Source: an uncultured Bacteroidota bacterium
GTDB taxonomy: Bacteria > Bacteroidota > Bacteroidia > JABEUT01
Direction: 5' to 3'
Assembly (NCBI GenBank): GCA_903863935.1
Contig: CAIPDV010000077.1
Location: 1-35,550, forward strand
DNA length: 35,550 bases
Made by a program: the position numbers and the translations under genes. A model generated the notes under the pieces. It had not been told where the DNA came from. It saw nothing but the letters and a program-made list of their open reading frames with translations, and made no database searches. Numbering within the stretch: the first letter of the stretch is position 1; each line of letters starts with the position of its first letter. Below are positions 28,975-35,372 of this stretch, in pieces.

Positions 28975-30174
28975 TTGAAAATCAGTTGGAATAGGATATT
29001 ATTCATCACCCAATGGCAGTTTGAGGATGCCTTGGTGCAAACCTATACGCTTCCGTATGTCAGGATCATTCAAAAAATTACGGCGTGTTATCCCTATGTT
29101 GTTACTATTAATAAGGGTATAAATCGTATTTGTGTTAAGAAAATAGGAGGTATTATTTCAATCCAAATCCCATCGGGTAAACGGCTGTTATTTTTAGGAT
29201 GGCTGTTGAATATTTTAGCATTACGCAAAATTATTCAAAAGAAAAAGATTGCGGTGGTTCATCCCTGGTGTACAACAGCAGGGGCAGTCGGGGCAATTTT
29301 AAAAATATTCGATAAGAACTTAAAACTGCATATCGATAGTTTTGAACCCCACGCCGAAGCTATGGTTGAAAATAAAACTTGGAAGAAGAGCGGATTAAAA
29401 TTCAAAGTGCTTTTTTACTTTGAAAAAATAGAATCGATGGCTGCCGATTACTTGATTTTTGCTGCCCCGGGAATGGAAAAATATATTCGTGACAAATATA
29501 AAACATCTGTAGTCAACTTCTCTGTAAAGCCTGCCTGTATTGACCTGAATGCCTTTTCTGTTAAATCGATAAAAACCCCTGATCTCGTAAAGAAATATGA
29601 TCTTGAAAATAAAATAGTTTGTGTTTATGCCGGAAAGTTTGGAGGCATTTATTTAGAAGATGAAACCTTTGTATTTATTAAAAGTTGTGAAAGTTATTGG
29701 GGTAAAGAGAGGTTCATGTTTTTATTGTTGAGTAATGCGTCTGACGAATACCTGAACGTGAAACGTTCAAAATTCAATATTGAGAATACAACCATCATAA
29801 AAATGTTCATTCCTCATTCCCAAATGCCAAAATATTTGGGATTGGCCGATTTTGCAATTAGCCCGGTAAAACCTGTCCCTACTAAAAAATATTGCACTCC
29901 CATTAAAGACGGAGAGTATTGGGCCATGGGACTTCCTGTTGTAGTCCCTCCCAATATTTCTGTGGATTCACAAATAATAAGAGAGAATAAGGCAGGGGCC
30001 GTACTCGAAAGCTTTGATGAAAAGGGAAACAAAGATGCCATCATCCAGATAGATTCAATAATCAAAGGAAAGAGTAGGATGGAAGTTTACAATTTAATAC
30101 GTCCGCTGGCCGAAAAATACAGGAATTTCAGCATTGCTGAGGATATTTATAAAAAAATCTATGGAACAGAATAA
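28975..30174 (+). CDS. GT4-like glycosyltransferase (GT-B)
   Basis: The 399-residue protein starts with TTG at 28975; no ATG is near. The N-domain has ILFITQWQFEDALVQTYTLP and VVHPWCTTAGAVGAILK. The C-domain has IVCVYAGKFGGIYLEDETFV (about 214-233) and CTPIKDGEYWAMGLPVVVPP (about 305-324), which resembles the GT4 nucleotide-binding block but with less conservation than in the 25256 gene. It is the last plus-strand gene of the glycan cluster. Its stop codon directly abuts the stop codon of the convergent beta-barrel gene. It probably transfers a sugar; the precise GT family is less certain. Confidence 0.75.
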   Translation: MKISWNRILFITQWQFEDALVQTYTLPYVRIIQKITACYPYVVTINKGINRICVKKIGGIISIQIPSGKRLLFLGWLLNILALRKIIQKKKIAVVHPWCTTAGAVGAILKIFDKNLKLHIDSFEPHAEAMVENKTWKKSGLKFKVLFYFEKIESMAADYLIFAAPGMEKYIRDKYKTSVVNFSVKPACIDLNAFSVKSIKTPDLVKKYDLENKIVCVYAGKFGGIYLEDETFVFIKSCESYWGKERFMFLLLSNASDEYLNVKRSKFNIENTTIIKMFIPHSQMPKYLGLADFAISPVKPVPTKKYCTPIKDGEYWAMGLPVVVPPNISVDSQIIRENKAGAVLESFDEKGNKDAIIQIDSIIKGKSRMEVYNLIRPLAEKYRNFSIAEDIYKKIYGTE

Positions 30175-31053
30175 TTAGAGCTCCCCAGTTATTCCGAAGG
30201 TAAACTGCAATAAATTTACAGAAAGGATTTTGGTTTCATTTACTGTTCCGGAATCAATGTAATTGTTAGATAAATTTGGGTTGCTCGGGTTGGGTTGCGT
30301 GTAATAAGCTACGCTATAACTGGTAAATTTAATATCGGAACCTGAATATGTCATATTTACATGCACACCAATATGACCTTCGGCTGTAATAAATTTAAGT
30401 CCAACTCCTCCACAATAAGCAAAACCAGAGCCTTCGGGAAAAGTGTAAATTTCAGACTCATCCTGGGCGCCAATGTTGATATATGAAAGGGGTGGATAAT
30501 TAGAATTTGCAAATCCTGCCATTGCCCGGCATTCCAGGCTAAAGTGTTTTCCTGTTGGAATATTATAATTGGCACCCAACATATATTGTAAAACATAGTA
30601 ACTATCACCCAATGTTACTGATACTGTGTTGGGTTTGAAGTAAGTGATAAATTGAGAGTTTAATGAAGTTATGTCGTATCCCAAATTACTACCACCAACT
30701 GATGCCATAATACTGAAATTATGAAAGAGCCTCAGCGCCGCATAAAATTCATAGTGAAACCCATATTTGGCATACCCTCCAAGGTGAGATGTATCCCCGC
30801 TATTATATCTGCTGTTAGGGTATTTTGAAATATCTGCTTTCCTAAATGGCCCTATTGGTATCCCATAGCCATCATTAATTCCAAAAGTGAATCTTTTGGT
30901 AGTATCCGGCCTTTTAACTTTTGCTTTGCCAACACCTCCGGTAATAGCAAATGAATGTCTTTTTTCTTTTTTTGTGCTGTCGGCATTACCCTGACCAATG
31001 CATAGATTGCCAAAGAATAATACTACGATACCCACCAAAATGAAACGTTTCAT
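30175..31053 (-). CDS. Secreted beta-barrel-like outer-membrane protein, unassigned
   Basis: The product is about 292 residues from the ATG at 31053, which starts a signal peptide (MKRFILVGIVVLFFGNLCIG). The open frame runs to 31110, but the likely -7 box (31116-31123) would place the transcript start around that upstream codon, so the internal start is preferred. The mature part has alternating strand patterns with aromatic ends (for example YGFHYEFYAALRLF, FSIMASVGG, YVLQYMLGANYNI and LLQFTFGITGEL at the C-terminus), as in small outer-membrane barrels. No specific family is recognised. A 34-bp perfect palindrome covers its start codon. It lies between the glycan cluster and the metal-efflux operon with no obvious link to either. 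Confidence 0.65.
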   Translation of the reverse strand: MKRFILVGIVVLFFGNLCIGQGNADSTKKEKRHSFAITGGVGKAKVKRPDTTKRFTFGINDGYGIPIGPFRKADISKYPNSRYNSGDTSHLGGYAKYGFHYEFYAALRLFHNFSIMASVGGSNLGYDITSLNSQFITYFKPNTVSVTLGDSYYVLQYMLGANYNIPTGKHFSLECRAMAGFANSNYPPLSYINIGAQDESEIYTFPEGSGFAYCGGVGLKFITAEGHIGVHVNMTYSGSDIKFTSYSVAYYTQPNPSNPNLSNNYIDSGTVNETKILSVNLLQFTFGITGEL

Positions 31054-31063
31054 TTTGGTGGGT
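31030..31063. repeat. 34-bp perfect palindrome over a start codon
   Basis: The left arm ACCCACCAAAATGAAAC (31030-31046) is followed directly by its exact reverse complement GTTTCATTTTGGTGGGT (31047-31063). The ATG of the beta-barrel gene (minus strand, 31053-31051) lies inside it, so both strands read ATGAAACG at this place. In RNA the two arms could fold into a stem of about 15 pairs covering the start codon. Confidence 0.95.
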
Positions 31064-31115
31064 TGTATATATAATATATTGGTAATTCTGTTGAGTATAA
31101 ACCTTTCCATCGGGG

Positions 31116-31123
31116 CAAATATA
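31116..31123 (-). promoter_or_regulatory. Bacteroidota-type -7 box (TATATTTG)
   Basis: Minus-strand TATATTTG fits TAnnTTTG. Transcription from it would begin around 31110, giving a leader of about 57 bases before the ATG at 31053, and the palindrome would be transcribed. A clear -33 TTG is not seen. Confidence 0.5.
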
Positions 31124-31166: not shown

Positions 31167-34100
31167 TTAGTCCATCCGGTGGTGAGGATGATACACCATG
31201 TAATAAATGATTGGCAGAATTAGCAATACCAAAATGGTGGCGGAAACTAACCCGCCTATCATAACAATGGCAAGTGGTTTTTGGGCTTCAGAGCCTATTC
31301 CGGTGCTAATGGCGGCAGGAAACAAACCTACCATATCAATTAATGCGGTCATAACAACCGGCCTCACACGTTCGCGAACCCCATTGTGAATGGATTCAAC
31401 TAGGTTTTGTTTTTTATGCAGGTTTCGTTTGAACTGTACCAATAATATCACTCCATTCTGAATACAAACACCGAATAGTGCAATGAAGCCAATACCGGCC
31501 GAAATACTGAAATTTGTATCGGTTAACAGCAAGGCAAAAATTCCACCAATCAAAGCAAACGGAACATTCAGGAGAATAATTGTAGAATCGCGAAAATTCC
31601 CGAATGCTACAAAAAGTATTACAAAAATCAGCAGGAGACTAATAGGTACTACTTGTTTTAGTCTATTAACCGCCCTTACCTGGCTTTGAAATTCACCAAC
31701 CCAATCCATTTTATACCCTTTGGGGAATTTTATATCCTTTGTTTTTTTCTGTGCATCAGCTATAGCACTTCCCATATCCTTGCCACGAACAGAAAATTTT
31801 ACACCTATTCCGTGCATATTATCCGTTCGGAAAATTTGGGTTACTCCTGTCTTTAAAGTGATATTTGAAATAAGCTTCAGCGGCACTTTTCCCCCATTAA
31901 GGGTCGGTACCATAAGGTTTCCAAGTTCCTCCGGGGTTTTTCTGAATTCCTGCATATAACGCACCCGCAGGTCAAATAATCTTTCTCCTTCAAAAACCTG
32001 GGTGGCTGCCTGACCACCGACCGCCATTTGTATTATAGCGTTGGCATTTGCTGCGGTTACGCCGTATCTTGCCATTTTACTTTGTTCCAGGTCAATATCA
32101 AGTTCCGGTTGCCCGAGGTTTTTCAAAATTCCCAGATCCGTTATTCCTGGTACTTTTAGTAGAGTATCTCTAACTTCCTCTGCTTTTTGATTTAAAATGT
32201 TGATGTCATCACCTGATATCCTTACAGCCAGCGCAGCATTCATGCCTGCAACAGCTTCTTCTACATTATCGCGTATAGGTTGCGAAAAGTTAAATACATT
32301 CCCGGCATATTTATCATTCAGCAGTTCGCTCATCGCATTTATCAAAGAATCTTTACTGATCTTTCGTTTCCAGTCATCCTGTGGATAGAGTGAAACATTG
32401 CATTGGATATTGGAAAAAGATTTAGGGTCAGTTCCGTCATCGGGCCTGCCGGTTTGAGAAATAACACTTTTTACTTCCGGAAATTTTAGGAGATCCTTTC
32501 GCATACTATCTGCCAGCATAGAAGATTGGGTGAGTGAAATTCCCATGGGAGTCTGGGCTTCTACCCAAAGTGCGCCTTCATCTAAATGAGGTAAAAATTC
32601 CGATCCTAAAAAGGTAGCAATATAAAGACTGCCACCCAGCACAACTATTGCAATTGCGAGGCTTGTGCGTTTATGTTTGAATGTAAAATTGAATAATTTT
32701 CCATAAGCTTTTTCAAGCCCGCCGACAATTGGATTGTGTTTTTCATACACATTCTTATTTAATAGGATCTGAATTAAAACAGGAACCAGGGTTAACGTGA
32801 AAATAAGTGCTCCAAGTAAGGCAAACCCTAACGTCCATGCAAGAGGCGAAAATATTTTTCCTTCAATATCTTCGAACGAAAAAATAGGAATAAGTGCAGT
32901 GATAATAATTAGTTTGGCAAAGAGTATTGCCTTACCCATATCAATGCTGGTGTTTTTGATCCAGCCCATCTTGGCTCTTTTGTTGAATTTTTCTTTCCCA
33001 AGTTCTCGATAATACCCATCGAACATTACGAAGCACCCTTCAACCAGAACAACCGCACCATCTATAATAATTCCGAAGTCAACCGCTCCTAGAGACAATA
33101 GGTTTACGGGCATGCCTTTTATCTGCATACATATGAAGGCAAATAAAAGCGAGAGCGGAATAACAAGGGCTACAATTAAAGTCGCTCTCCAGTCTACCAT
33201 GAAAAGAAAAACAAGCCCAATTACAAGTATGATGCCTTCAAGCAGATTTTGCAAAACGGTTTTTGTGCAAAATGTAATGAGCGTACTTCTGTCATAAAAA
33301 GGAATAATTTTTACATCTGAAGGAAGGATGGAGTTATTCAGTTCTTCAATTTTAGCTCGTATTCCTATAAGTATTTCCTGTGGATTTTTCCCTTTGCGCA
33401 TAACAACAACCCCTTGCACCACATCTGCAGCAGTATCCAGACCAACCTTGCCCAGGCGCGGCATGTTGCTTACAGAAACATTCGAAACATTTTGTACAAG
33501 CAAGGGAACACCATTCATATTTTTTATGATGATATTTTTTATTTCATCAATATTATTGATTAAGCCTATTCCCCTTACTACAAAAGACATTTCACCCTGT
33601 TCAATCGCATCGCCTCCGGCATTTATGTTACTGTTTGCAATGGCGTTGTATACATCCAGTGCAGTTATGCCATATTTGTTTAACAAATACGGATTAACAT
33701 CCACTTCATAAGTTTTGGTCGGGCCTCCATATGTATTAACGTCTGCAACACCATCAACGGCATGCAGGTTTCTTTCCACCACCCATTTTTCAATAGTTTT
33801 TAATTCCAAGGCCGATTTGGTTTTGCTTTGAAGCGTAAAGCGGTATATCTCGTCTGTTGGGCCATACGGTGGTTCAACACTGGCCTGAACACCTACCGGC
33901 AGCCCCACATTGTTTAAAAGATTCATTACCTGCGCACGGGCATGGTAATCATCCACACCGTCTTTAAAAATGATGGTGATCTGTGAAAGCCCAAACATGG
34001 TAATGGAATGCATCGATTTCTTATCCTGCACTGAATTCATAGACAACTCAATCGGAATGGTGATTTGCCTTTCCACTTCCTCGGCTCCTCTTCCCTGCCA

Positions 34101-34274
34101 CTGGGTAATAATTATTATCTGCGTGTTGGTAATGTCAGGATACGCTTCAATAGGGGTATTGCTATATGCAATGGCTCCCAATATTCCAATAACAATAGTT
34201 GCAAAAAGTATAAAGACTTTATTCTTTAAAGAGAAGGCAACGATGTTTTTTATGATCCTGTTCATCCGTTGCAA
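31167..34274 (-). CDS. czcA: Heavy-metal RND efflux pump (CzcA-like)
   Basis: The protein has 1035 residues, the normal length for the heavy-metal efflux RND family. It opens with SLKNKVFILFATIVIG and PIEAYPDITNTQI, the usual CzcA start. The proton-relay helix TM4 reads AVDFGIIIDGAVVLVE with D399, D405 and E412, equivalent to CzcA D402, D408 and E415. This form goes with divalent Zn/Co/Cd/Ni pumps; the Cu/Ag pump CusA reads differently. Further landmarks are SEFLPHLDEGALWVEAQTP and the C-terminal KPLAIVMIGG. It exports metal from the periplasm or cytoplasm through the adaptor and channel encoded upstream. The start is ATG 34274; an ATG at 34265 is also possible. It is the last gene of the operon. 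Confidence 0.95.
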   Translation of the reverse strand: MQRMNRIIKNIVAFSLKNKVFILFATIVIGILGAIAYSNTPIEAYPDITNTQIIIITQWQGRGAEEVERQITIPIELSMNSVQDKKSMHSITMFGLSQITIIFKDGVDDYHARAQVMNLLNNVGLPVGVQASVEPPYGPTDEIYRFTLQSKTKSALELKTIEKWVVERNLHAVDGVADVNTYGGPTKTYEVDVNPYLLNKYGITALDVYNAIANSNINAGGDAIEQGEMSFVVRGIGLINNIDEIKNIIIKNMNGVPLLVQNVSNVSVSNMPRLGKVGLDTAADVVQGVVVMRKGKNPQEILIGIRAKIEELNNSILPSDVKIIPFYDRSTLITFCTKTVLQNLLEGIILVIGLVFLFMVDWRATLIVALVIPLSLLFAFICMQIKGMPVNLLSLGAVDFGIIIDGAVVLVEGCFVMFDGYYRELGKEKFNKRAKMGWIKNTSIDMGKAILFAKLIIITALIPIFSFEDIEGKIFSPLAWTLGFALLGALIFTLTLVPVLIQILLNKNVYEKHNPIVGGLEKAYGKLFNFTFKHKRTSLAIAIVVLGGSLYIATFLGSEFLPHLDEGALWVEAQTPMGISLTQSSMLADSMRKDLLKFPEVKSVISQTGRPDDGTDPKSFSNIQCNVSLYPQDDWKRKISKDSLINAMSELLNDKYAGNVFNFSQPIRDNVEEAVAGMNAALAVRISGDDINILNQKAEEVRDTLLKVPGITDLGILKNLGQPELDIDLEQSKMARYGVTAANANAIIQMAVGGQAATQVFEGERLFDLRVRYMQEFRKTPEELGNLMVPTLNGGKVPLKLISNITLKTGVTQIFRTDNMHGIGVKFSVRGKDMGSAIADAQKKTKDIKFPKGYKMDWVGEFQSQVRAVNRLKQVVPISLLLIFVILFVAFGNFRDSTIILLNVPFALIGGIFALLLTDTNFSISAGIGFIALFGVCIQNGVILLVQFKRNLHKKQNLVESIHNGVRERVRPVVMTALIDMVGLFPAAISTGIGSEAQKPLAIVMIGGLVSATILVLLILPIIYYMVYHPHHRMD

Positions 34275-34277
34275 TTT

Positions 34278-35372
34278 TTATTGACCGTATACATAAAGGC
34301 TGCCTTTGCATACAACTACATCCTTAGCTTCTAATCCTTTTGTAACATAAGCATCTCTTTCGTTTGTACCTTCTATAGAGATCTTTCTTTTTTCAAACTT
34401 GTTTTTCCCTTTTGATACCATTACATAATAATCGTTATCGTAAAATACCAGAGCTTCTTTGGGAACACCCAGTGCTTTTTTATGTTTATCCAGATGCACA
34501 TTAACGGTTGCAAACATGCCTGACTTTAAATGTCCGTCAGGGTTATCCACAACTATCCTTGCCTGCATAGTGCTTGCGGAAGAATCGAGCATGTTTGAAA
34601 TTTTGGATATTACTCCCTTAATTTTTTTATCGGGATAGGCTACAGTAGTTATATCAGTTGAATCACCAATCGAAATTAGCGGAATATCATTTTCGTAAAC
34701 GTTAGCTTCAACCCATACTGTTTTTAAAATGGAAACGGTAAATAACGGACTTGTATTATCAGGCCGGATATTCATTCCTTCATTTATGGATTTTGAAACA
34801 ATGTAGCCGTCAATGGGGGAGATGATGCTATATACCGCATTCGTGTCAGTTGAAGTTACTTTGTAGTTTTTCAAATAGGTTTGTACCTTCTGAAGTGTTG
34901 CCAGTGCTGACTTGTAATCATTCTGAGCCTGCATCACATCCTTGTCGGAATATACTTTTGTTTTATATAACTCTTGGGCTATTTCAAGATTTCGCTGAGT
35001 CGTTTTAACCTGCGCCTGCGCAACAATGTATTGGCCTTCATAATCGCTAACGTCCCCGCTTCTCAATATGGCCAGTGTTTGTCCTTTAGTCACATAATCG
35101 CCCTGCGATGCCTCCACTTTAGTAACATTTCCACTTACAAGGCTATAAACAGGTGAGAGATAATCCTTATCGTATGACACCTTTCCGCTTAATATAAGGT
35201 CAGTTCTTTCCTCCTGAATTCTTACCGTATCAACTGTGATCTGGTTTATTTGAATTGAGTTCAACTCAACCAAGTTCGAATCGGTGGATTGTTCAGTTAC
35301 CTGCTGTTCGGGGCCTTTGCAAGATACTATCCAGAGAACCGTTAGTACCAATAATAAAATCTTATATCTCAT
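34278..35372 (-). CDS. czcB: RND efflux periplasmic adaptor lipoprotein (CzcB/CusB-like)
   Basis: This 364-residue adaptor has a lipoprotein signal MRYKILLLVLTVLWIVSC (lipidated Cys18), the first lipoyl half GNVTKVEASQGDYVTKGQTL (about 78-97), an alpha-hairpin (about 110-165), the second half SIISPIDGYIVSKSINEG, and beta-barrel and membrane-proximal domains (for example GHLKSGMFATVNVHL and AYVTKGLEAKDVVV). No His- or Met-rich metal-binding extension is seen. It lies 3 bases before the RND gene and 9 bases after the truncated channel gene, so it belongs to a czcCBA-type operon. Confidence 0.92.
   Translation of the reverse strand: MRYKILLLVLTVLWIVSCKGPEQQVTEQSTDSNLVELNSIQINQITVDTVRIQEERTDLILSGKVSYDKDYLSPVYSLVSGNVTKVEASQGDYVTKGQTLAILRSGDVSDYEGQYIVAQAQVKTTQRNLEIAQELYKTKVYSDKDVMQAQNDYKSALATLQKVQTYLKNYKVTSTDTNAVYSIISPIDGYIVSKSINEGMNIRPDNTSPLFTVSILKTVWVEANVYENDIPLISIGDSTDITTVAYPDKKIKGVISKISNMLDSSASTMQARIVVDNPDGHLKSGMFATVNVHLDKHKKALGVPKEALVFYDNDYYVMVSKGKNKFEKRKISIEGTNERDAYVTKGLEAKDVVVCKGSLYVYGQ

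Follow-up and report, generated by a model that had tools for sequence, protein, structure and literature searches.

Organization of the locus

The window analysed here is the whole 35,550-nucleotide stretch of contig CAIPDV010000077.1 from an uncultured Bacteroidota bacterium (assembly GCA_903863935.1). Its right-hand part carries a gene whose start region contains a long perfect palindrome, together with the following genes and sequence elements (G010 is the related genome that holds the orthologue of the gene).

28975..30174, plus strand: convergent glycosyltransferase-like gene, syntenic in G010
30175..31110, minus strand: palindrome-bearing gene, with a signal-peptide-like N-terminus and a product of 311 aa (start 31110) or 292 aa (start 31053)
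31167..34274, minus strand: upstream RND (AcrB/CusA-type) efflux pump gene, PF00873, syntenic in G010
34278-35372: membrane-fusion protein gene, next to the RND pump gene
31123-31116, minus strand: -7 box TATATTTG, of the TANNTTTG type (consensus from PMC6847099); the orthologue has TATCTTTG
31108..31110, minus strand: in-frame ATG, 5 nt past the -7 box, predicted transcription start site (TSS) and likely leaderless start
31051..31053, minus strand: second in-frame ATG, within the palindrome and 57 nt downstream of the first, the start by homology to G010 (MKRFIL...)
31030..31063, no strand: palindrome, 34 bp, 17+17, no spacer
31040..31053, no strand: inner core ATGAAACGTTTCAT, 14 bp, the codons M-K-R-F-I; MKRFIL is shared with G010
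31030..31046, minus strand: coding-side arm GTTTCATTTTGGTGGGT, residues R-F-I-L-V-G, aligned to the orthologue with no gap
31054..31063, minus strand: outer leader-side arm ACCCACCAAA, unalignable to the orthologue (identical in 1 of 10 columns, with a length difference of 4 nt)

A Pfam search with the product of the palindrome-bearing gene, described as a beta-barrel in the original prediction, returned no domain. The peptide MERFILNRITNILYIQPTK would come from a start at 31110. The -7 box that was considered likely at 31116-31123 is present, and the palindrome lies downstream of it and so within the transcript.

A single-copy perfect palindrome over a start codon

The palindrome, ACCCACCAAAATGAAAC joined directly to GTTTCATTTTGGTGGGT, stands in the window sequence exactly where it had been reported, with all 17 positions of one arm complementary to the other (17/17) and ATGAAACG read on both strands. 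It is flanked by ATCGTAGT (minus) and TGTATATA (plus), and on the minus strand takes in the ATG at 31053 and the codons M-K-R-F-I-L-V-G. The original judgement that such a structure is unlikely by chance agrees with the expectation from the genome base composition, which for spacerless palindromes with arms of at least 17 is about 5e-6 per window and about 6e-4 per genome. The genome search that had been proposed returns a single copy in the 3.76-Mb draft genome (126 contigs), even with 3 mismatches allowed, and no copy was found in the 10 other congeneric genomes searched.

Long perfect palindromes as such are not rare in this genome; the placement over a start codon is the unusual part. The 1.22 Mb sampled contains 14 perfect inverted repeats with arms of at least 15 and a loop of 0-8, distributed between intergenic sequence (8), ORF edges (4) and the interior of ORFs (2), and many of the long perfect palindromes of the genome look like terminators. 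The two that lie within ORFs are the start-codon palindrome and one copy of a repeat family. Of the 894 ORF starts sampled, only 31053 combines a credible start codon with a perfect palindrome around it whose arms exceed 9; the 2 other start-overlapping cases are hairpins over mis-called GTG/TTG starts.

Two familiar classes of palindrome were considered and rejected. An intrinsic terminator finds no place here, as the terminator scan detected none at this site and the hairpin is followed by no U tract. REP- or RPE-type mobile palindromes resemble the present one in lying within an ORF, but they form repeat families, whereas the start-codon palindrome occurs once at up to 3 mismatches. A separate palindromic repeat family, CCCCAAACCCCTAAAGGGGCTTTGAATA with its reverse complement, does exist elsewhere in the genome: with up to 3 mismatches allowed, its arm matches 51 times, compared with 0 in the control (copies at L157:4223-4286, G000:C89, and L131:17270-17329, G000:C42). 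A 614-aa two-domain ABC ATPase ORF carries one copy of this family (31-nt arms) in frame within its linker, and that copy resembles REP- or RPE-type mobile palindromes.

The gene adjoins an efflux operon, and perfect dyad symmetry near the gene's promoter also invites comparison with an operator, that is, with a site for a dimeric protein within the transcribed leader. We regard this as very unlikely. The palindrome is a single genomic copy at up to 3 mismatches; half-site matches at that threshold number 21, two of which are the palindrome itself, compared with 31 in the control; and no other half-site lies within the window. Moreover, a perfectly symmetrical stretch of 34 bp would be long for an operator, one half of the palindrome is coding, and the orthologue lacks it altogether. 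The dimeric protein-binding site put forward in the original prediction is thus disfavoured by the single copy and by the lack of a similar site elsewhere in the window.

Comparison with relatives

The comparative set consists of 11 congeneric genomes, and searches at the family and order level give the same 11. Among them is one syntenic orthologue (L003, G010), the only one near enough for comparison, which has 52% amino-acid identity and the same neighbours on either side; a search of genome contigs with the protein found no relatives. The orthologue begins with MKRFILLAIL and keeps the -7 box and the leader, but its start region has no palindrome. There the codons for M-K-R-F-I are ATGAAAAGATTTAT, and the 14-bp palindromic core is not formed. 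No such palindrome was found at the start of the other family members examined in the genus. The palindrome is seen in one species and, from this comparison of sequences, is not a conserved regulatory element; the loss of symmetry in orthologues was the observation that the original prediction had named as arguing against its proposed leader hairpin.

The difference between the two species is not spread evenly over the start region. Identity to G010 is 86% in the promoter, 58% in the leader, 67% over the first 24 coding nucleotides from the ATG and 54% further downstream, while in the outer leader arm, a block chosen after inspection, it is 10% over 10 columns with a 4-nt gap. Because the low identity and the 4-nt gap fall in the outer leader arm, the unalignable block corresponds to one arm of the palindrome. 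Ahead of this block the two leaders align with only a 1-nt gap. A tandem duplication, suggested by the resemblance of an upstream peptide, MERFIL, to MKRFIL, is not supported by that leader alignment.

Further observations concern palindromes outside this gene. Among about 85,000 species genomes, 29 stretches contain the 20-bp core AAAATGAAACGTTTCATTTT, and three of them have arms that reach 17-18. These matches were rejected as a family with the present palindrome, since most lack a long ORF from the core ATG and two of the three long-armed ones look like one shared element. In several Chlamydiae-type genomes (L036, L044, L051, L053, L056, L060, L062), AAAATGAAACGTTTCATTTT lies inside a similar long ORF with arms of 12 each, and is probably a conserved coding motif that is palindromic by accident. 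In G004 (L006), a 30-bp spacerless perfect palindrome, ACAAATCCCCGCCTTAAGGCGGGGATTTGT, lies in the intergenic region upstream of a family member and is probably a terminator.

A predicted mRNA hairpin masks the internal start codon

In the computed fold of the mRNA, the palindrome forms a stem-loop of 15 pairs with a 4-nt loop (-22 kcal/mol), in which the AUG at 31053 is fully paired. The minimum free energy (MFE) of the start region, -23.7, is below that of all 815 starts tested (mean -6.9). The original proposal of a start codon hidden in a stable stem is therefore borne out as far as the pairing of AUG 31053 is concerned, whereas a conserved regulatory role is not supported, given the orthologue with no palindrome. 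In Bacteroidetes, initiation is reduced where the start region is structured (PMC6847099), and translation from AUG 31053 is predicted to be poor if the hairpin is taken alone.

In silico, no pair of the stem opens between 10 and 65 C, which is why an RNA thermometer was rejected. An Rfam search gave only sub-threshold chance matches, and a literature search on palindromes that hide start codons found none. Like start-codon-sequestering leader hairpins, used in translational repression and RNA thermometers, this hairpin holds the AUG within a stable stem of the transcript. Unlike them, it is a perfect 15-bp helix that does not melt over that range in silico, it lacks conservation, and it may be circumvented by a leaderless start upstream.

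These properties bear on the idea that AUG 31053 is the true start and that selection maintains the palindrome because it makes translation low or conditional. In favour of it are the complete pairing of this AUG in the most stable of 815 start regions, the effect of such structure on initiation in Bacteroidetes (PMC6847099), the homology that places the start at 31053, and adenines at -3, -6 and -13 relative to AUG 31053. We nevertheless consider a selected leader hairpin unlikely, in view of the orthologue that lacks the palindrome, the failure of the stem to melt in silico, the lack of any known leader family at its gathering score and the likely leaderless start upstream.

A probable leaderless start upstream of the hairpin

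Many TSSs of F. johnsoniae stand 4 or 5 nt past the -7 box, and leaders exceed 10 nt in 87% of the predicted transcripts that have a probable promoter (PMC6847099); a minority of transcripts is therefore short-leadered or leaderless. Counting exactly 5 nt on from TATATTTG gives the A of the in-frame ATG 31110. In the 1.22 Mb sampled of its own genome, 21 ATG starts of ORFs of at least 100 aa fall 4 nt past TANNTTTG and another 21 fall 5 nt past it, compared with a background of 5.5 per position at distances of 40-79, that is, 42 seen and about 11 expected at 4-5 nt. Three altered control boxes gave 1-10 ATG starts, and of six other codons tested only GTG had a clear peak, weaker and at 3-5 nt. 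Several of the N-termini at leaderless spacing resemble what we take to be well-known housekeeping proteins. Judged from the excess over background, about three quarters of the ATGs at this spacing are likely to be real leaderless starts, with about a quarter there by chance.

Because the spacing of AUG 31110 coincides with this peak, and because the AUG is mostly unpaired in silico and lies 47 nt ahead of the hairpin, translation of the gene most likely starts at 31110. The transcript would begin at or beside this AUG and be translated leaderlessly, and ribosomes would then probably run through the hairpin, melting it as they elongate, so that the palindrome is tolerated; initiation at the internal AUG 31053 would be strongly reduced. 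The product, as suggested by the promoter spacing, would be the 311-aa form with a 19-residue N-terminal extension. Two points count against a start at 31110: the start by homology is 31053, and the G010 orthologue has no in-frame N-terminal extension. The original preference for ATG 31053 is doubtful all the same, as an in-frame ATG stands at the exact leaderless spacing in a genome rich in such starts. The arrangement resembles the leaderless mRNAs of Bacteroidetes (PMC6847099) in having an ATG 5 nt past a TANNTTTG box, and differs from them in that a second in-frame ATG 57 nt downstream, the homology start, is masked.

Proposed origin of the palindrome by template switching

Taking these data together, we lean towards the reading that the palindrome is a lineage-specific template-switch scar, tolerated through leaderless translation from AUG 31110 past the hairpin. 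The gene start ATGAAACGTTTCAT, which encodes M-K-R-F-I, would by accident have been a 14-bp palindrome, and this core is probably older than the rest. During replication, a nascent strand fresh from copying the 5' end of the gene would fold back on the core, use its own coding arm as template for about 10 nt and return. The leader next to the start codon would thereby be replaced by the reverse complement of codons 5-8. The coding-side arm, which aligns with the orthologue with no gap, would be the template of the copy, and the unalignable outer leader-side arm would be the new copy.

Quasipalindrome-associated template-switch mutations are documented in E. coli, with reporters (PMC7202029), and template switching has been proposed to make perfect RNA hairpins in a single event (PMC8794818). 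The present case would share with such mutations the conversion of a short inverted repeat into a longer perfect one, the clustering of changes in one arm and a small change in length (PMC7202029, PMC8794818). It differs from the known cases in that the 14-bp core gains 10 bp per arm on a start codon, and in that the event is inferred from a single orthologue at 52% identity rather than from a reconstructed ancestor.

Could substitutions alone have lengthened a coding 14-bp palindrome? The codons do account for the core, and many genomes were scanned and odd items picked out. However, the probability that the core is extended by 10 chance pairs is about 2e-6, the whole palindrome is expected 6e-4 times per genome, and the departure from the orthologue falls mainly in one arm, together with a change in length. 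Template switching, which needs one step, is favoured for the origin, and we consider chance improbable. Still less probable is an artefact of assembly or amplification, such as a fold-back chimera. The genome is a 126-contig draft, judged from the assembly rather than from reads, but the site is interior to its contig, the reading frame is intact, and the sequence on either side is unique and aligns collinearly with the orthologue, which makes an artefact unlikely.

A possible rewiring of the gene start

In G010 (L003, minus strand, about 2414 to 2361), there is a possible leaderless GTG ORF of 17 codons. Its GTG sits 4 nt from the box, and it ends in TAATG, the TAA overlapping the ATG of the gene. 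The distance from the first to the second start is 53 nt in G010 compared with 57 nt in the palindrome-bearing species. Tentatively, and with a small likelihood in our estimation, one template switch could have rewired the start, with a palindromic block 4 nt longer removing the stop, framing the leaderless ORF as a 19-aa extension and masking the old start. In this way, the palindrome-forming event may have joined the gene to a leaderless upstream ORF, a reading that two sequences leave indistinguishable from coincidence.

In sum, a palindrome may lie on a start codon and be striking and statistically improbable, and still have no regulatory role. The one described here is probably better seen as a curiosity than as a new means of control. 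It provides a testable natural case of a template-switch mutation that alters a translation start. If the rewiring is true, a single replication error would have moved a gene between modes of initiation.
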